Shown here in pieces: positions 34,061 to 44,788 of a DNA stretch of 64,000 nucleotides (its first letter is position 1; each line of letters begins with the position of its first letter). The notes beneath the pieces were generated by a model, which was not told the DNA's origin, searched no databases, and was given only the letters and a program-made list of their open reading frames with translations. The DNA is from Gammaproteobacteria bacterium (GTDB lineage Bacteria; Pseudomonadota; Gammaproteobacteria; UBA4575). The stretch covers positions 62,001 to 126,000 of the forward strand of contig JANQOB010000020.1 of NCBI GenBank assembly GCA_028279275.1, in the 5' to 3' direction. The position numbers and the translations under genes are program-made.

Positions 34061-34393
34061 TTAAACGCAACCCGTGGGCTTTGGTAGTCCCGCATATTTA
34101 CATGCTTGCTTTGCAGGACCATAAGGGAACAATTCATACAAGTATTTACTGTTACCTTTATCTTTACCAAGTTTTTTACCTATTGCTTTTGTTAGCACGC
34201 GAACGGCTGGGGCAATTTGATACTCTTCGTAATACTCACGTAGAAAGTTAATTACTTCCCAATGGTTATCACTTAATTCTGCACCATCTGCGGTAGCCAT
34301 TGCTTCAGCCAGTTCAGGCTGCCAATCATTAAGGTTTGCTAAGTAACCTTCTTCATCAGTTTCATAAGACTGACCATTTACTTCTAAAGGCAT
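34061..34393 (-). CDS. dsrC: DsrC, sulfur carrier protein
   Basis: A 110-residue DsrC. The flexible C-terminal arm carries both functional cysteines, Cys98 (K-Q-A-C-K-Y) and the penultimate Cys109 (P-T-G-C-V), which form the persulfide, trisulfide and disulfide in sulfur oxidation. The helical core shows the family's H-W-E-V-I-N-F-L-R-E-Y-Y motif. DsrC accepts sulfur from DsrEFH, presents it to DsrAB and is recycled by DsrK. The gene has its own downstream stem-loop and a ribosome site AGGAG. Confidence 0.97.
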   Translation of the reverse strand: MPLEVNGQSYETDEEGYLANLNDWQPELAEAMATADGAELSDNHWEVINFLREYYEEYQIAPAVRVLTKAIGKKLGKDKGNSKYLYELFPYGPAKQACKYAGLPKPTGCV

Positions 34394-35630: not shown

Positions 35631-36704
35631 TTAGAAACGAATGTGGGTCGAAGCATTTAAGCTACGTCGCGCACCACGCCAGTTATCAATATGAAATTTT
35701 GTAAATGGTAAGCCAGTGATTTCAAAGAAGCGTGGCCAACCGATTCGCTCAACCCAATCATTAATGCGTTCCCAATCTTTAGCATCATCGCGATACGAAC
35801 GCAGAATACGTTTAACGATTGCAGTGGCTTCTGGCCATCGTGGCGGATTATTAGGAATTCCTGCTGCAACTAGTTTTTGAAAAGTTGGTTTACCGCGTGC
35901 ATTTGAATGGTTTCCACCTACCCAAATAGCTAGTTTGGTATGCTCGGCATCATTAATTTGCATAGGAGGACAAGGAGGGTAACACGCACCGCAACAAATA
36001 CATTTTTTCTCGTCCACTTCCAGAGAGGGCTTGCCATTTACTTGCGCAGGTCGAATCGCTGCAACCGGGCAGCGCGCAACAACTGATGGTCGCTCACATA
36101 CATTTGACACTAAATCATGATTGATTTTAGGTGGCTTGGTATGTTGCACGTTAATTGCTATGTCGCCTTGACCGCCACAGTTAATTTGACAACAAGAAGT
36201 TGTGATGTGCACGCGATTAGGCATGTTATTTTCTTTAAACTCATCAATGAGCTCATCCATCATGGCTTTTACAACACCCGATGCATCCGTTCCTGGAATA
36301 TCGCAGTGTAACCAACCTTGTGTGTGGGAAATCATAGCGACAGAGTTTTTGGTTCCACCTACCACAAAACCTTCTGACTCTAATTTATCAATTAGAGGTT
36401 GTACTTTTGCTTCATCCGCCACCATGTATTCGATGTTGCTGCGAATAGTGAAGCGCACGTAACCATCTGCAAACTCATCACCAATGTCACACAAGGTGCG
36501 TAGTGTGAATACATCAAGAATACGTTGTGTACCTGCGCGAACTGTCCAGATTTTGTCGCCGTTATCTGCAACATGAAGTAATACACCTGGACGTGGGTGT
36601 TCGTGGTAATCCCACATGCCATAATTTTTTCGCATCAATGGATGCATGTATTGGAATCCGTCTGGGCATCCTGATTCAATTGGTGGACGATGCTCTTGCG
36701 CCAT
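35631..36704 (-). CDS. dsrB: DsrB, dissimilatory sulfite reductase beta subunit
   Basis: A 357-residue subunit. The sirohaem/[4Fe-4S] cysteines appear as T-S-C-C-Q-I-N-C-G-G and C-E-R-P-S-V-V-A-R-C-P, and the ferredoxin domain as C-I-C-C-G-A-C-Y-P-P-C. Together with DsrA it forms the alpha2-beta2 enzyme that, in the reverse direction, oxidises DsrC-bound sulfur to sulfite. The length is usual. A ribosome site AGGAG lies seven bases upstream, and 64 bp separates it from dsrA. Confidence 0.97.
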   Translation of the reverse strand: MAQEHRPPIESGCPDGFQYMHPLMRKNYGMWDYHEHPRPGVLLHVADNGDKIWTVRAGTQRILDVFTLRTLCDIGDEFADGYVRFTIRSNIEYMVADEAKVQPLIDKLESEGFVVGGTKNSVAMISHTQGWLHCDIPGTDASGVVKAMMDELIDEFKENNMPNRVHITTSCCQINCGGQGDIAINVQHTKPPKINHDLVSNVCERPSVVARCPVAAIRPAQVNGKPSLEVDEKKCICCGACYPPCPPMQINDAEHTKLAIWVGGNHSNARGKPTFQKLVAAGIPNNPPRWPEATAIVKRILRSYRDDAKDWERINDWVERIGWPRFFEITGLPFTKFHIDNWRGARRSLNASTHIRF

Positions 36705-36768: not shown

Positions 36769-38028
36769 TTAACCGGCAGCTGCTTGTTCCGCTTTTTTCT
36801 GGAACCATTGCTCTGCTTCCTCATCCCAGCCATCCATACGAACGTATGAACTTTGTCTAGGTTCGTTAACCATATTTGGATCCACATCAACATCAACACC
36901 TTCTAGGAAGTTGACTAATCCAATGCGTTCGATCATTTCACCACAGCGTTCATGTTCGAGCCCATTTTCTGCCCAGAAGTCGATGGTTTCTTCAGCAAGT
37001 TCTACAATTTTTTCGTAGTCTTCTTCGGTTTCAAGCTTCATAAACGGCACCACAACCGTTCCCATCAAGTCACCAATCTTAAGCGTACGCTTCCCGCCCA
37101 TTAGAATGGAAACACCTTTGTCGTCACCCGGGGAAAGTGCTTTCACCATGACATTCAAGCAGTGCATACAACGCACACAATCTTTGTTGTTAACATCTAA
37201 TGTATCGTCATCTTTAAGTGCCAAGGCTTTAGTTGGGCAACGTGTAATGACGTTATCAATCACATATTGACGACCTTTACGCTTAACAAACTTCTTCACT
37301 TCCTCTTGATCTACTTTCATGTCGTCGCGCCAAGTACCGATAATGGCAAAGTCAGCACGTTCAATTGAATTCATACAATCATTAGGACAACCAGAAACTT
37401 TAAATTTGAATTTGTAAGGGAGAGCGGGGCGGTGAACATCGTCAGTAAAATTATTTAAAAGTGTGCGGTGTATTCTCATTTCATCCGCATTTGACATTTC
37501 ACAACGTGCAGCGCCTACACATGACATTCCAGTACGTACGCATGGTCCTGCACCCCCAAGATCCCATCCGTAATCATTAATTTCATCAAAAAAGTGTTGT
37601 GTGTTTTCTGTAGTTGCGCCGATAAACATAATGTTTCCGGTTTGGCCGTGGAATGTAACTAATCCAGAGCCGTGTTTTTCCCAGCTATCACCTAGCTGGC
37701 GAAGCATATCTGTGGAGTAGTAATTACCTGCAGGAGGTTGCACGCGCAATGTATGAAATTCTTTCGATTCAGGAAATGCAGCTCCTACTTCTGAAAAACG
37801 GGGAATGATTCCACTACCGTATCCAAATACAGAAACGGTTCCACCTTTCCAATATCCTTTACGCGTTTCGTAAGAGTGTTCAAGCTGACCAAGTAATGAA
37901 TTTGCTACACCTTGAATCCGTTCATCATCATGTTTATCACGAAGACGTTTGATACCAGAAATAAAGCTTGGCCATGGGCCTTTCTCTAGCTCATCAAGCA
38001 TGGGGGTAGGATGATGCTTATCAGCCAT
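36769..38028 (-). CDS. dsrA: DsrA, dissimilatory sulfite reductase alpha subunit
   Basis: A 419-residue subunit and the first gene of the dsr operon. The sirohaem-linked cluster cysteines are in C-V-G-A-A-R-C-E-M-S and V-S-G-C-P-N-D-C, and the ferredoxin domain in C-V-R-C-M-H-C-L-N. The start has a strong AGGAG site. The reading of the locus as oxidative rests on dsrEFH and dsrL behind it. The promoter region upstream contains an inverted repeat and a sequence box shared with other genes of this window. Confidence 0.97.
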   Translation of the reverse strand: MADKHHPTPMLDELEKGPWPSFISGIKRLRDKHDDERIQGVANSLLGQLEHSYETRKGYWKGGTVSVFGYGSGIIPRFSEVGAAFPESKEFHTLRVQPPAGNYYSTDMLRQLGDSWEKHGSGLVTFHGQTGNIMFIGATTENTQHFFDEINDYGWDLGGAGPCVRTGMSCVGAARCEMSNADEMRIHRTLLNNFTDDVHRPALPYKFKFKVSGCPNDCMNSIERADFAIIGTWRDDMKVDQEEVKKFVKRKGRQYVIDNVITRCPTKALALKDDDTLDVNNKDCVRCMHCLNVMVKALSPGDDKGVSILMGGKRTLKIGDLMGTVVVPFMKLETEEDYEKIVELAEETIDFWAENGLEHERCGEMIERIGLVNFLEGVDVDVDPNMVNEPRQSSYVRMDGWDEEAEQWFQKKAEQAAAG

Positions 38029-38359
38029 AGTGGAATCTCCTAAAAAATGTTGTCAAAAAATCGTTAATTTTGAAATTTGCTAAGCAAATCTAGGTCGACA
38101 GAAAACATATTCCGTTACGTTTAAGAACCTGATAGAAAAGTCCTAAAAACATAATGTTAGAAGTGTAGAAGTAGGGCTAAAAAGGCAAAATCCCTACCAT
38201 TGGGTGCCGCCTTAAATACAACTTATCCCAATAGAGATACGATTTATTACAGTCATGAGATAAGTAAATTACATGGGTTTACGAGTAGTCTAGATCTATG
38301 TTCGTAACTAATAACAGAACCAGATATTTACGCTATTTTACTCATATAGCTCCTAAGCA
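38029..38359. promoter_or_regulatory. Divergent dsrA / TauD-like promoter region with shared box
   Basis: This gene-free region must hold the promoter of the dsr operon. It contains the inverted repeat GTAGGG-N15-CCCTAC (38171-38197) and the sequence GGCAAAA-TC-CCTACCATT (38184-38201), which is nearly repeated upstream of the DsrC paralogue, as well as TGCCGCCTTAAATAC (38205-38219). On the minus strand TCTCTATTGGGATA resembles TCTCAATAGGGATA upstream of the TrpD-like gene. I could not fix a -10/-35 pair. Confidence 0.5.
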
Positions 38360-39274
38360 ATGCAGTCCTATCCCATAGAAGAAAAGCATGCTTATCAAGC
38401 TTGGCGCGAGGAAAAATTAAACCGCTACCCTTTATCGGTTAATGAGTTAATAATCGAGCTAAATAACCCTATAAAACTAATGGATAAAGAGATTCGTGCA
38501 CTTCAGTCAAGCTGCGTAAAAACGAATATTGTCTTTTATCGTCTACCCGCCAATACACAAATTGACAAACAGATTGTTTTGTCGATTGCGGATCAATTGG
38601 GATTAAAGCAACTCGATGCAAATTTATGTGCGGATGAAGATAAGATTTCGGTTATTCAAAACGCAAATAATTCAAGCTCACATTACATTCCCTACACAAA
38701 CAAAGCATTAAATTGGCATACCGATGGTTATTACAATCCGTCATCACAGCGTATTCATGCATTTTTAATGCATTGTATTCATGCAGCTAAAAATGGTGGT
38801 GAGAATAATTATTTAGATCCAGAAATTGCCTATATTTTTTTGAGAGATGAAAACCCTGAATACATCACAGCGCTTATGGATGAGAATGTCATGACTATTC
38901 CGGCAAATGAAATTGACAAAAATAATATTCGTACCGCACAAACCGGACCCGTATTTTATTTTGAAAATGGCGTTGACTTATGTATGCGATACACTTCCCG
39001 TAAACACAACATTGAATGGAAAAAAGATAAAACTGTGCAGAGTGCACTGTCTTGTTTGCAAGAGATATTAACAGATAATGCCTATATTTTTACGTATCGC
39101 TTACGACCCGGAGAAGGTGTAATTTGTAATAATGCACTACATAACCGTACTGCGTTTGAAGACGGTGATGAGAAATACACAAAACGTATGTTATATAGAG
39201 GGCGGTTTTATAATCGTATAACGAATAGTTTAACTTCAGCAGAATTGGAGACTAATAATGCTATGGTTAAGTGA
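38360..39274 (+). CDS. TauD/TfdA-like Fe(II)/2-oxoglutarate dioxygenase
   Basis: A 304-residue protein with the metal triad of the TauD family: H120-T-D122 in N-W-H-T-D-G-Y-Y, and H261 in N-A-L-H-N-R-T, with R263 nearby for 2-oxoglutarate. The barrel sequences F-L-M-H-C-I-H-A-A-K-N-G-G-E-N and L-R-P-G-E-G-V-I-C-N-N fit. The substrate is unknown; TauD itself releases sulfite from taurine, so an organosulfur substrate is an attractive but unproven idea beside dsr. It is the first gene of a four- or five-gene plus-strand cluster, and its last 17 bases overlap the next gene. Confidence 0.82.
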   Translation: MQSYPIEEKHAYQAWREEKLNRYPLSVNELIIELNNPIKLMDKEIRALQSSCVKTNIVFYRLPANTQIDKQIVLSIADQLGLKQLDANLCADEDKISVIQNANNSSSHYIPYTNKALNWHTDGYYNPSSQRIHAFLMHCIHAAKNGGENNYLDPEIAYIFLRDENPEYITALMDENVMTIPANEIDKNNIRTAQTGPVFYFENGVDLCMRYTSRKHNIEWKKDKTVQSALSCLQEILTDNAYIFTYRLRPGEGVICNNALHNRTAFEDGDEKYTKRMLYRGRFYNRITNSLTSAELETNNAMVK

Positions 39275-39458
39275 GTTGCTTATGCAACACCATGAGCTGA
39301 AGTCATTTGAAGAGTTAAAAGAAACTCTACTTGAAGCTGCACAACAAGGTGAAATGTTTTTTCGTATGGATGTGCGGCCTCCTTTTCAAGATACACCTGA
39401 TAATTGGGAAGATATCTTAGAGTCTATATTTACTAGTGCTAATAAAGTTGGTGACTAA
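39258..39458 (+). CDS. 66-residue acidic protein of the satellite cluster
   Basis: A small acidic protein (L-W-L-S-E-L-L-M-Q-H-H-E-L-K-S-F-E-E-L then R-P-P-F-Q-D-T-P-D-N-W-E-D). Its start overlaps the last 17 bases of the TauD-like gene in another frame, and it stops seven bases before the Cas6-like gene, so it is translated from the same message. The helix-rich sequence has no known motif. The tight coupling with the Cas6-like gene suggests a partner or regulator. Confidence 0.7.
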   Translation: MLWLSELLMQHHELKSFEELKETLLEAAQQGEMFFRMDVRPPFQDTPDNWEDILESIFTSANKVGD

Positions 39459-39465
39459 TTAGATT

Positions 39466-40155
39466 ATGTTTTGGCAAGATCAAGATGAGCAAAAACAACA
39501 ATTTGTTGTACCAGATGACATTGTTGATTTATCTTTTAAAGTACAATGCAAGCAGTTACCGCTTGATCATGCTTATGAATTGTCACAAGCCATTCAACAA
39601 AAATTACCTTGGATGGTGGACGAACCACAAGCAGGAATTCATTTGATTCATGGAGCTGAATCTGGAAATGGGTGGATTCGTCCTGAAGAACCTGATGCAA
39701 TTTTAAGCTTATCCAGACGCACTCGTTTTATGTTGAGGCTACCCAATTATCGAGTTGATGATGCAAAGCAACTTGAAGGTCAATTATTAAATGTTTCGGG
39801 CAATGAATTAGTTTTAAGCGCACCCCACCAAAAAAGTCTTTCGACATTGACTACTATTTTCTCTCGCTATTTGGCTACTGATCAAGTTGATGATGAAGAG
39901 GTTTTTCTGAATCAGGCTGCGGAATTATTAAACGAGCAAGGCATAAAAGTTAAAAAAATGATGAGTGGGCGAGCCCATGTTTTAACAACACCAGATGGTG
40001 AGCTGCAGACGCGCAGCTTAATGATTGATGGCTTAGAAATAGAAGAATCTATTTTCCTCCAGCAACACGGACTAGGTGATGGGCGTTTGCTAGGATGTGG
40101 TTTATTTCTCCCACATAAGGGAATTGATGCTGTCGGGCAAGCACAAGAAAATTAA
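39466..40155 (+). CDS. Cas6/Cmx6-like RAMP protein
   Basis: A 229-residue protein that resembles the Cas6 of type I-MYXAN systems (Cmx6): I-H-L-I-H-G-A-E-S-G-N-G-W near residues 58-70, S-R-R-T-R-F-M-L-R-L-P, T-R-S-L-M-I-D-G-L, and the C-terminal glycine-rich loop G-L-G-D-G-R-L-L-G-C-G (202-212) ending L-P-H-K-G-I. Cas6 proteins bind and cut CRISPR repeat RNA. No CRISPR array or other cas gene is seen in the window, and it sits between a TauD-like gene and a DsrC paralogue. The function is therefore likely different, perhaps RNA processing or binding linked to sulfur oxidation. Family assignment rests on remembered motifs, not a search. Confidence 0.75.
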   Translation: MFWQDQDEQKQQFVVPDDIVDLSFKVQCKQLPLDHAYELSQAIQQKLPWMVDEPQAGIHLIHGAESGNGWIRPEEPDAILSLSRRTRFMLRLPNYRVDDAKQLEGQLLNVSGNELVLSAPHQKSLSTLTTIFSRYLATDQVDDEEVFLNQAAELLNEQGIKVKKMMSGRAHVLTTPDGELQTRSLMIDGLEIEESIFLQQHGLGDGRLLGCGLFLPHKGIDAVGQAQEN

Positions 40156-40174
40156 AGCAAGATAATAAATGATC

Positions 40175-40201
40175 GGCAAAAAACCTCCCATTTTGGTAGG
40201 T
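40175..40201 (+). promoter_or_regulatory. Candidate regulatory box before the DsrC paralogue
   Basis: GGCAAAA followed by AACCTCCCATTTTGGTAGGT contains a 19-base near-palindrome (ACCTnCC...GGnAGGT). It matches the box in front of dsrA (GGCAAAA-n2-CCTnCCATT-n-GGT). It lies about 65-90 bp upstream of the DsrC-like gene. Confidence 0.45.
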
Positions 40202-40265
40202 GAAGTAAATTTCGATCTATATTAATTTTGTTAGCAGTGCTTTATTTATAAGTTAGGAGTCGAGC

Positions 40266-40595
40266 ATGAGTTTAAGCGATATTGAAACCACACCTTCTGG
40301 ATTTTTAGTAAACATTGAAGATTGGAGTAAAGATCTTGCGCAAGAAATTGCTGTAGATGAGGGCCTTGAGCTAACCGAAAAACATTGGGATGTAATTAAC
40401 TATTTGCGAGATGAATTTATAAACAATGCAGGCAATCAGCCCAATACCCGCAATATGACTAAGGCTATGGCCAAAGCCTGGGGCGAGAAAAAAATCGATG
40501 CCAAAGTTCTATATGATCTATTTCCTGGTGACCCAAGCAAACAGGCTGGGCGTATAGGTGGATTGCCAGAGAGCCGTCGCAAAGGCGGTTATTAG
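40266..40595 (+). CDS. Cysteine-free DsrC/TusE-family paralogue (RspA-like)
   Basis: A 109-residue DsrC-family protein: T-P-S-G-F-L-V-N-I-E-D-W-S-K-D-L-A opens the domain and L-T-E-K-H-W-D-V-I-N-Y-L-R-D-E forms the core. Both C-terminal cysteines are missing: the arm reads D-L-F-P-G-D-P-S-K-Q-A-G-R-I-G-G-L-P, with Gly in place of the first cysteine, and it ends without G-C-V. It cannot carry sulfur on the arm. Proteins of this kind (called RspA, regulatory sulfur-related) have been proposed to have a regulatory role. A good GGAG site precedes the start. Confidence 0.9.
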   Translation: MSLSDIETTPSGFLVNIEDWSKDLAQEIAVDEGLELTEKHWDVINYLRDEFINNAGNQPNTRNMTKAMAKAWGEKKIDAKVLYDLFPGDPSKQAGRIGGLPESRRKGGY

Positions 40596-40689
40596 TCTGT
40601 TTGTGCACAATGCTGCATCCAAAAGGGTATACAGACTGTCTAGGCTAAATCATTAAATTATTACTTACCTGATATTTAGAGGATTCAAT

Positions 40690-40893
40690 ATGAGTTCTAA
40701 GCAAGAAAAAATTGAAAAAATGCTTGAGATGCAAAAAAAGTTTATTGAACTTGAGCAAAAAGGCGAAGTAACTGCTGAAGGCTATTTTGCACCTGAGCCT
40801 GGTTCTGATCTTGATGGTTTTCGTGAAGAATATATGAAACTAGCGATGGAAGTGGTTGATGAAGCCCACGAAGATAAAGGCTCGCATCGTTAA
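40690..40893 (+). CDS. 67-residue charged protein of the satellite cluster
   Basis: A small helical protein: K-Q-E-K-I-E-K-M-L-E-M-Q-K-K-F-I-E-L-E-Q then A-E-G-Y-F-A-P-E-P-G-S-D-L-D-G-F. The first half could form a coiled coil, and the second half has a conserved-looking Y-F-A-P-E-P-G motif. The start has an AGAGGA site. It ends the cluster before a strong terminator. Family not recognised; the location behind a DsrC paralogue suggests a link to sulfur oxidation. Confidence 0.75.
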   Translation: MSSKQEKIEKMLEMQKKFIELEQKGEVTAEGYFAPEPGSDLDGFREEYMKLAMEVVDEAHEDKGSHR

Positions 40894-40968: not shown

Positions 40969-41637
40969 TTAAACTTCGCTCCACATGCGCACTAAATTTA
41001 CATAAGTATTATCTACTCGTTTTGTATCTTCTGATTCAGGTGCATCACGAAGCATTTTTTCACGTGTTTTATTAAGTTGATAGAGTAATTCACGTTGTTC
41101 ATTACTGCGAATCAAGCTTTGAATCCAAGTTACGGCAACTATACGTTTACCCTGAGTTACCTTTGTAACTTGATGTCTGGTTGTAGCGGGATACAAAACA
41201 GCATCACCAGCATCAGATTTTATACTTTGTGCGCCATAAGGTGTTTGAATAATAAGTTCACCCCCTTCGTAGTCGGTTGGCGAATTGAGAAAAATTGTCA
41301 TGGCGAGATCAGAGCGATAGCGATTTTGTTGCCCCATTACCGGATCATCAATATGTTCACCATATTCCATGCCTTTTTCATAGCAGGCATAAAACGGTGC
41401 GGCAATACGATGAGGTAAGGCTGCTCGCTGATATTCAGTGTGTCTAACAACATTATTCATCACAATGTTATTTAAAGATGAAATAACTTTTTCATCTGCA
41501 ACTTCTTGATTATTTTTAACTGACTGTGCTGCCAGTCCAGCAGAAAGTTTTCCATCTCTGAATGTTGCATTGTTCAGTAGTTCTTGAACTTTTTGTAGTT
41601 CATCACTGCCAAGAATATGTTTAATATGAACCAACAT
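40969..41637 (-). CDS. PKHD-type Fe(II)/2-oxoglutarate hydroxylase (PiuC/YbiX-like)
   Basis: A 222-residue protein of the PiuC/YbiX family. The metal site is H95-I-D97 in Y-G-E-H-I-D-D, with H155 in T-T-R-H-Q-V-T-K-V and R165 for 2-oxoglutarate. Family members are often found with siderophore receptors and hydroxylate unknown substrates; no such receptor is here. The gene is convergent with the plus-strand cluster and divergent from an unknown gene. The motif TACTACTTTTGTTAC lies between the divergent starts. Confidence 0.87.
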   Translation of the reverse strand: MLVHIKHILGSDELQKVQELLNNATFRDGKLSAGLAAQSVKNNQEVADEKVISSLNNIVMNNVVRHTEYQRAALPHRIAAPFYACYEKGMEYGEHIDDPVMGQQNRYRSDLAMTIFLNSPTDYEGGELIIQTPYGAQSIKSDAGDAVLYPATTRHQVTKVTQGKRIVAVTWIQSLIRSNEQRELLYQLNKTREKMLRDAPESEDTKRVDNTYVNLVRMWSEV

Positions 41638-42465: not shown

Positions 42466-43059
42466 TTAAGCAAAAACTACCCAAGTCGTAGCGATATACT
42501 TTATTCCATTCTTGAGCGTGACTCCTCGGTGTTCATGTGTCCAAAACGGTGGAAATAAAATTAATTTTCCAAGTTCAGGCTTGATTTTGATATCTTGAAA
42601 CAAAAATTCTGTTTCACCGCCCGGGCCTTCTACGTCATTTAAATACCAAATGGCGACTAGTTGTCGATGGCTAAAATCATGACTGCCTCCGTCAATATGC
42701 CAATGATAATGTTCACCAGGTTTCGTTCTTTGTACGCCATAACCCATGTCTTTAAACGGGCCTTTAAAAAAAGGATAGGATTCACGAAACTCTAAAATGG
42801 CTTTGCCTAAAGATTGAAATAGTGCTTTATCTACATCTTTCCAGTGCTCTTTTCCACTTACAAGAAGATCAGTTGATTTTTTAATGCTTTCATCCTCGTC
42901 GGCGAGTTGTCCAATACGTCCTTTATATTGTCCTTTTTTATCTTTTTCGAAACGTTCGATTATGTTTTGGCAGAATTCATTTGTAAGGGCGTTTCGTTTT
43001 TCAAAGACAAATGAATTGGGCTTGACCTCTTCTATGGTCTGCAAAGATTTAACGGACAT
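42466..43059 (-). CDS. Fe(II)/2-oxoglutarate oxygenase (prolyl-hydroxylase-like)
   Basis: A 197-residue protein. The metal motif is H121-I-D123 in Y-H-W-H-I-D-G-G, and the distal part F-P-P-F-W-T-H-E-H-R-G-V supplies histidine and arginine. The overall layout is that of P4H-type 2OG-Fe(II) oxygenases (DUF/PF13640-like). It starts three bases after the stop of the 347-residue unknown gene, so it is part of the same operon, together with the acetyltransferase. The substrate is unknown. Confidence 0.85.
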   Translation of the reverse strand: MSVKSLQTIEEVKPNSFVFEKRNALTNEFCQNIIERFEKDKKGQYKGRIGQLADEDESIKKSTDLLVSGKEHWKDVDKALFQSLGKAILEFRESYPFFKGPFKDMGYGVQRTKPGEHYHWHIDGGSHDFSHRQLVAIWYLNDVEGPGGETEFLFQDIKIKPELGKLILFPPFWTHEHRGVTLKNGIKYIATTWVVFA

Positions 43060-43062
43060 ACA

Positions 43063-44106
43063 TTATAATTTGTTGTTTTGTACAAGATGTTCTAATTTTT
43101 CAAAATCCAAATTTTTATCTTCTTTGTACTGCTGCAACATTTTTTTTGCTAAGTTGCTCCAGTGTTGTACACCTTTAGCAACAAGTACTTTCATGGGTTT
43201 AATATCTTCTGTTTCTATCCAATTTTGATAGGCGGATTGAAAACTTGGGAATAGCTCTTTACGCATGGCCGCTAAATTTGCTGAATAAAAATGTAGTGAA
43301 GCCGGATTATAATTTTCAATTAAACCTGGAAGGGTGGATAAACAATCAGCCAGTAAGTCTTTAACAGCTCTTGCCATAAATTCAGCACGTGAACGAGGTA
43401 AGTTTACAATCATTTCACGCCAATCTTCGCCGAGTTCTTTAGTAGCAATTAATTCTCCAATTTCATGTAGTGCTACTGCTTCAAGTTCATTATCTGTCAT
43501 ATGATCGAGCGCTTGATCGACGTTGTTTTCAAAATCGTAATACGATAAAGCACGTGACATTGCGTTTTCATATTTATTCCACTGCCATTCAGTAAATTTT
43601 TCCCAAAGATATCTGCGTAATGCTTCACGCCGAATAAAAACGTTTTTACCTTGTGTCATTGCTGGAGGAGCTGTTAAGTCTCGCGCGCATTCATCTGCAG
43701 ATACATACATTGTGAAATCGTTATACACTTCTTTTTCTTCTAGCTTGGCTAAAAAAAAGTGAGGTGCGGATCGAACACCTATTCCACCACTGTAGACATA
43801 ACCTTTGGGCGCTAATACTTTATTAATATTTTCGGTATCGAAAGGATCATATTCTTTGCCGTCTATTTTTAAAGGTATGTATGAATGATCTTCAATTTCT
43901 TCCCATAATGTTTCACGCTCTTGTACCCAATTTCCAACATCTTCTTTTGGTAAGACATCATTATATGAATAACCATTCTCCCAACGATAATATTCGCGCA
44001 TCTTAAGTAGATATACACATAGAGTGTAATTTGCCGCGTGATGCGCATCTGAGATATCACAGTTCTTCTGAACCGTTTCGCAAAGTGGATGAGTGTCTTT
44101 TAGCAT
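43063..44106 (-). CDS. Unknown 347-residue protein, conserved-type in dsr organisms
   Basis: I do not recognise this with certainty; the sequence style is reminiscent of the Sfum_1244 family, which I recall from dsr-containing bacteria. It is cytoplasmic, rich in Trp and Tyr (Y-Y-R-W-E-N-G-Y-S-Y, W-E-K-F-T-E-W-Q-W-N-K-Y). It has a motif A-V-A-L-H-E-I-G-E-L-I-A that looks like an incomplete HExxH metal site. It begins the minus-strand operon with the oxygenase and acetyltransferase, and is divergent from another unknown gene with only 70 bp between. Confidence 0.7.
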   Translation of the reverse strand: MLKDTHPLCETVQKNCDISDAHHAANYTLCVYLLKMREYYRWENGYSYNDVLPKEDVGNWVQERETLWEEIEDHSYIPLKIDGKEYDPFDTENINKVLAPKGYVYSGGIGVRSAPHFFLAKLEEKEVYNDFTMYVSADECARDLTAPPAMTQGKNVFIRREALRRYLWEKFTEWQWNKYENAMSRALSYYDFENNVDQALDHMTDNELEAVALHEIGELIATKELGEDWREMIVNLPRSRAEFMARAVKDLLADCLSTLPGLIENYNPASLHFYSANLAAMRKELFPSFQSAYQNWIETEDIKPMKVLVAKGVQHWSNLAKKMLQQYKEDKNLDFEKLEHLVQNNKL

Positions 44107-44176: not shown

Positions 44177-44788
44177 ATGGCAAGGTTAAAGACTAAATGG
44201 AACCAAGAAGGGCGAAAACGCACACCTGAAGAAATTGCAGGTGTTATTGGCTTTAATCTGTGGGTGCTTGCAGGTGAATCCTGTTTATTTCTTGAAAACG
44301 AGGGCTTTGAGACTGTTTCTCGTTTTCAAAGGTTAGATGTTATTGCAGAGTTTGTTGCTTTTGGAGCGCATATTGCGGACCGAATGGTATTTGATGATAT
44401 GACCGCAACAGAGCGCGAGATTTTTATTAACTCTCTTGGTCAACACTTAGCAGATACTATGCAAAGCAATCGTAGAGATGTTCGTGAAGGTGAATATCGC
44501 TCTGACTTTATAAATTTGCTCAATGAAAGAATGAGTGAGTATTCTGAATATTCATATAGTCATGAAGACGGGCCAGGGTTTTCCATGCGTAGATTAGCTG
44601 GTAATCATGTCCAAGATGTGATGGGGGAAAAAGATAATAAGTGGATTCCTGATTACGTAATTGATTCTGAAATTCCAAAAATATTATTAGGACTGAAACG
44701 AGTGTTTAAAGGGCAAAGCCCATCTTTAAGCGAGGCTGAATTTGCACCACCACCTATTCCTGAAAGCGGGGTTTGGGGAGAGGAATAA
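44177..44788 (+). CDS. 203-residue protein of unknown function
   Basis: A cytoplasmic, helical protein starting M-A-R-L-K-T-K-W-N-Q-E-G-R-K-R-T-P-E-E-I. It has A-G-V-I-G-F-N-L-W-V-L-A-G-E-S, a middle rich in acidic and aromatic residues, and ends with the proline stretch F-A-P-P-P-I-P-E-S-G-V-W-G. A conserved-looking F-G-A-H-I-A-D-R-M may form part of a site. It is divergent from the 347-residue unknown gene and precedes a DUF1272 gene. No function is assigned. Confidence 0.7.
   Translation: MARLKTKWNQEGRKRTPEEIAGVIGFNLWVLAGESCLFLENEGFETVSRFQRLDVIAEFVAFGAHIADRMVFDDMTATEREIFINSLGQHLADTMQSNRRDVREGEYRSDFINLLNERMSEYSEYSYSHEDGPGFSMRRLAGNHVQDVMGEKDNKWIPDYVIDSEIPKILLGLKRVFKGQSPSLSEAEFAPPPIPESGVWGEE

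Follow-up and report, generated by a model that had tools for sequence, protein, structure and literature searches.

The closest described systems are the type I-MYXAN (I-B type) CRISPR systems, such as that on a plasmid of Nostoc sp. CENA543, in which a basic Cas6/Cmx6 is encoded beside cas3-cas8-cas7-cas5-cas1-cas2. A precedent for work outside immunity is DevTRS of Myxococcus, a set of I-MYXAN Cas proteins with a developmental role. However, the DevTRS genes still lie within a CRISPR locus, and the proteins and the pathway differ from those of the Cas6-like protein described here, whose gene is linked to dsr. A second known family is DsrC/TusE. DsrC proper has one or more conserved C-terminal cysteines, and a cysteine-free class, RspA, has been suggested to be regulatory; a literature search for the RspA class gave no confirmation. 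TusE, a homologue of DsrC, delivers sulfur for tRNA thiolation (PMC3397948). A search of a collection of open-access papers found none on a dsr-linked Cas6.

The gene analyzed lies in a 64-kb stretch of gammaproteobacterial DNA, referred to as the window, and the features around it are collected in Table 1. Its packing is operon-like, as the first-pass annotation had noted. The gene of a TauD-like oxygenase with conserved HTD and distal His motifs overlaps s66 by 17 bases, a gap of 7 bases separates s66 from the Cas6-like gene, and a cysteine-free DsrC paralogue with the C-terminus RKGGY is found downstream. The predicted fold of s66 had no match in a structure search. The opposite strand carries dsrA, dsrB, dsrE and a canonical dsrC and, further on, ORFs resembling dsrF, dsrH, dsrM, dsrK and others. 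Two more Fe/2-oxoglutarate-type oxygenases (40969-41637 and 42466-43059) are located near the operon and recur in many relatives. A DUF6866/Sfum_1244 protein (43063-44106) and a 203-aa family (44177-44788) recur beside dsr, the latter adjoining TauD in beta-type loci. No viral or phage carriage was found.

Table 1. Positions of the features around the Cas6-like gene in the window.
Feature	Position	Strand	Basis or remark
Canonical dsrC, both C-terminal cysteines (..QACKYAGLPKPTGCV)	34061..34393	-	
dsrB	35631..36704	-	TIGR02066, 552.5 bits
dsrA	36769..38028	-	Divergent to the Cas6 operon
Second conserved partial dyad (ATCCCTACCATTGGGTGCC)	38190..38208	.	
Palindrome TATCCC-N4-GAGATA, candidate DNA operator	38224..38239	.	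Divergent dsrA/tauD intergenic region
TauD-like Fe/2-oxoglutarate oxygenase, 304 aa	38360..39274	+	PF02668, E 4e-20
s66, conserved 66-aa protein	39258..39458	+	No Pfam match; predicted small three-helix protein
Cas6-like (RAMP) protein, 229 aa	39466..40155	+	Profile matches, predicted structure, residue conservation
DsrC/TusE-family paralogue (DsrC-KGGY), 109 aa	40266..40595	+	TIGR03342, 98.2 bits
s67, conserved 67-aa protein	40690..40893	+	Mainly at loci without the TPR-like gene

The product of the Cas6-like gene was matched in profile searches by the Pfam Cas6 family PF09559 (202.7 bits, E 7e-60), by PADLOC Cas6 models (E 2e-58) and by TIGR02807, cas6_cmx6, at 131.8 bits, above the cut-off of 98.85. 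The assignment to the Cas6 family is far above chance, and the likeness to Cas6 first recognized in the bare sequence was borne out. A structure modeled with AlphaFold2, using 46 homologues as input, reached a pLDDT of 90.9 and is predicted to have the Cas6/RAMP fold; the 42 PDB fold matches at E ≤ 0.001 were all Cas6. The best of them was the Cas6 of a type I-B CAST, which is part of a Cascade complex (PDB 8fcj chain B; E 3.5e-11 by sequence and 1.2e-14 by structure) and has an asparagine where the dsr-linked proteins have His35. This histidine, at the putative catalytic position, is present in 115 of the 116 dsr-linked members, in the same alignment column as the His of CRISPR Cas6. The C-terminal glycine-rich loop (GLGDGRLLGCGLF) was also retained, with G202, G204, G210 and G212 each found in at least 97% of the dsr-linked members. 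Both the RAMP fold, as a prediction, and the histidine, which the first-pass annotation had singled out for checking, are therefore present.

The comparison set of MYXAN Cas6 proteins was made of cyanobacterial plasmid sequences, one of which (L167, from a Gloeobacter plasmid) comes from a short stretch that shows no cas gene. These proteins and the dsr-linked ones have in common the TIGR02807/PF09559 profile, the RAMP-type predicted fold, a DH motif with the His of the catalytic position, R91, R134, Q199 and the glycine loop. Nonetheless, the dsr-linked members have no cas3-to-cas2 neighbors and form a clade of their own, from which the CRISPR Cas6 members were separated with an SH-aLRT support of 99 in a tree built by a quick method and having many weak inner branches.

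Profile scores above the CRISPR cut-offs would suit a working CRISPR Cas6 that serves arrays elsewhere in the genome in trans. Repeat-array and gene searches agreed with the first-pass annotation that the window contains neither a CRISPR-like repeat array nor cas neighbors of the Cas6-like gene. The genome from which the window comes (94.7% complete) has one copy of PF09559, and a genome-wide search of it for Cas1, Cas7/DevR and Cas3 yielded neither of the first two and no Cas3 above the cut-off. Six closed carrier genomes (G044, G019, G034, G080, G082 and G132) gave the same result for these three. Altogether nine genomes, six of them closed, had no Cas7/DevR and no cut-off Cas3 match. PF09559 was found in 91 genomes of a sample of 274 gammaproteobacterial genomes, always as a single match except in G264, where the matches resemble one broken gene. 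A Cas1-family match was found in 42 of the 91 carriers, as service in trans would predict, but 49 had no Cas1; with 62 genomes having only Cas1 and 121 neither, the association was not significant (odds ratio 1.7, p 0.06). The link is instead with dsrB: 87 genomes had both genes, four only Cas6, eight only dsrB and 175 neither (Fisher p 2e-56, a value that ignores the relatedness of the genomes). On the Cas1, Cas7/DevR and Cas3 searches and the co-occurrence with dsrB, action in trans was rejected, and the separate clade makes it still harder to maintain; we consider it highly improbable. The Cas6-like protein is almost certainly not a CRISPR component.

The tie to sulfur oxidation that had been proposed from a single neighborhood held when gammaproteobacterial genomes were compared, in co-occurrence as well as in gene order. 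When Cas6 and dsrB shared a contig, they were within 8 kb of each other in 62 of 63 cases. Six of the 12 exceptions to the pairing were inspected, and all six are compatible with assembly gaps: dsrA adjoins the Cas6-like gene at a contig end in G033 (L082), the contig of G093 is 3.5 kb long, the locus of G127 is at a contig end, that of G123 (L081) has TauD and s66, with the contig ending shortly into the TPR gene, and the contigs of G207 and G110 break just past dsrA. Counted against the Cas6 model in a phylum-wide sample, the gene was present in all four dsrB-positive Gammaproteobacteria and in none of the 47 dsrB-positive genomes of other proteobacterial classes, whose oxidative dsr works without it.

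Gene order was compared in 40 regions of different genera and later in 80 loci with record titles, where the MAG labels included Thiogranum, Thiohalobacter, Sulfuricaulis, Chromatiaceae, Ectothiorhodospiraceae, Thiotrichaceae and other gammaproteobacteria. Usually dsrBA is divergent from TauD-like, s66, a TPR-like gene at some loci, Cas6-like, the DsrC paralogue and often s67, and the order from dsrBA to the DsrC paralogue is kept across dozens of families. s66 was present at 110 of the 126 loci bearing Cas6, and the DsrC paralogue was the next modelled gene 3′ of the Cas6-like gene at 101 of 123 loci, 11 having none of the modelled set downstream. That most genomes have the gene adjoining dsr could also be expected of a functionless remnant or hitch-hiker traveling with dsr. 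However, its conservation over dozens of families, its invariant residues and its persistence after relocation in G109 leave such a reading with hardly any credibility. In this closed 1.4-Mb genome (L057) the Cas6-like gene is 40 kb from dsrB; an RNase III-like ORF diverges from it, and a thioredoxin-like gene lies downstream. Near-constant company with dsr together with missing CRISPR partners indicates that the Cas6-like protein was probably recruited from bacterial immunity for a different task in sulfur metabolism.

The cluster occurs as two subtypes, one with the TPR-like gene (220-270 aa) between s66 and Cas6 and the other with s67 after the DsrC paralogue (noted at L036-L041, L046, L051, L053-L055, L065, L066, L069 and L070). 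They are nearly mutually exclusive, the TPR-like gene being found at 45 loci, s67 at 63 and both at two. The beta-type loci retain dsrAB, Cas6 and DsrC-KGGY, and three deeper loci (L077-L079) keep dsrAB, the Cas6-like gene, DsrC-(G)KGGY and TauD, arranged differently. The Cas6 ORF of L079 (8228-9115) is extended at its N-terminus, and on visual inspection the extension resembles a protein of about 70 aa encoded after TauD-s66 in alphaproteobacterial-type loci without Cas6 (L185, L187, L188 and L189). Four dsrB loci of other classes, where dsrE is present, keep TauD and s66 and have neither the Cas6-like gene nor DsrC-KGGY, which suggests that these two were acquired jointly.

DsrC-KGGY is by profile a clear member of the DsrC/TusE family (TIGR03342), and a KGGY tail takes the place of the redox cysteine of DsrC in all 93 distinct sequences adjacent to Cas6. 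The supply of sulfur for tRNA thiolation by the homologue TusE (PMC3397948), and the location of an RNA-type fold next to a TusE/DsrC paralogue, could mean by analogy that the two proteins sense tRNA, or process it, depending on its 2-thiolation, tying sulfur oxidation to translation. The KGGY protein has no sulfur-carrying cysteine, however, and we regard a tRNA role as quite unlikely.

The dsr-linked Cas6 proteins differ from their CRISPR relatives in charge. Their median pI is 5.9 (4.8 for the protein of the window) as compared to 9.3-10.2 for CRISPR Cas6, and their median net charge is negative, where that of the CRISPR relatives is positive. The basic character that is typical of RNA binding, although not strictly defining, has been lost, which weakens the case for a generic RNA-binding role. 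The clade also has invariant residues of its own (W3, a GNGW loop, R85, E144, K164 and PHK), which may serve a protein or small-molecule partner, and conserves Cys28 and Cys211, Cys211 being found in CRISPR Cas6 as well. Acidity, these residues and the strict pairing with DsrC-KGGY would all fit a Cas6 fold reused without RNA, to scaffold or chaperone DsrC-KGGY or a different Dsr protein or to bind a sulfur compound, with His35 and the glycine loop employed in that role. Conservation of the Cas6 active-site His and the glycine-rich loop at ≥97-99% would not be expected if RNA handling had been lost, and RNA-free reuse seems to us rather unlikely. That the clade keeps its active-site and RNA-loop residues although its overall positive charge has gone suggests a narrow, specific target rather than general RNA binding. 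Most likely the protein would regulate the Dsr pathway as a sequence-specific riboregulator, together with DsrC-KGGY.

Candidate targets were sought near the operon. The palindrome TATCCC-N4-GGGATA was found with at most one mismatch in 66 of 99 dsrA upstream regions, compared to 0.3 in shuffles, and has a single exact match in the genome of the window. Its half-sites vary independently: 13 of 61 sites give C-A mispairs (pairs 3 and 5) on one strand and 16 of 61 do so on the other. Beta-type loci that have Cas6 lack the palindrome. It was therefore rejected as the RNA target of Cas6; a DNA operator fits these observations better than an RNA hairpin does, and the palindrome is a probable candidate operator for a dimeric DNA-binding regulator of dsr. 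The partial dyad, whose consensus is near TCCTACCCATGGGGTG, is found about 20 bases from it in many dsrA upstream regions. The stretch separating cas6 from the DsrC paralogue had no hairpin common to the loci, and a search of the region for known RNA families produced one weak match below the gathering score and none that was accepted. Thus, the new function in sulfur metabolism proposed in the first-pass annotation stands as regards a protein outside CRISPR, tied to dsr and with a DsrC-like neighbor, and is less secure as regards RNA binding or cutting, for which the retained His and glycine loop are offset by the lost basic charge and a search that found no RNA target.

On balance we lean toward a domesticated Cas6, a dsr accessory paired with DsrC-KGGY that would act as an RNA-binding and probably RNA-cleaving regulator. 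A Cas6-fold protein would have left CRISPR-Cas and become a fixed accessory of oxidative Dsr (reverse dissimilatory sulfite reductase) in gammaproteobacteria, including the beta-type lineages. Working as a pair with the cysteine-free DsrC-KGGY, it would bind one specific cellular RNA and probably cleave it through His35 in the manner of Cas6, independently of metal and beside a hairpin or a defined sequence. Its action on this RNA would adjust expression or translation while sulfur is being oxidized, and DsrC-KGGY may be the signal input or the regulator of the Cas6-like protein. Its extension to a gammaproteobacteria-wide dsr ribonucleoprotein regulator, in which a Cas6 from immunity and DsrC-KGGY control oxidative sulfur metabolism by specific RNA cleavage, is advanced tentatively, as a possibility of nearly even weight.

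One search pattern alone returned 566 relatives. Since the dsr-linked proteins pass the TIGR02807 cut-off, automated annotation can be expected to call them CRISPR Cas6, and the gene is probably annotated as type I-MYXAN CRISPR Cas6 in hundreds of genomes. This label is most likely a misannotation; it leads surveys of CRISPR systems astray and conceals a conserved part of a main sulfur-oxidation pathway. If the protein handles RNA, Cas6 would have been put to use in energy metabolism, and Dsr control would include a post-transcriptional layer in which a DsrC paralogue takes part.
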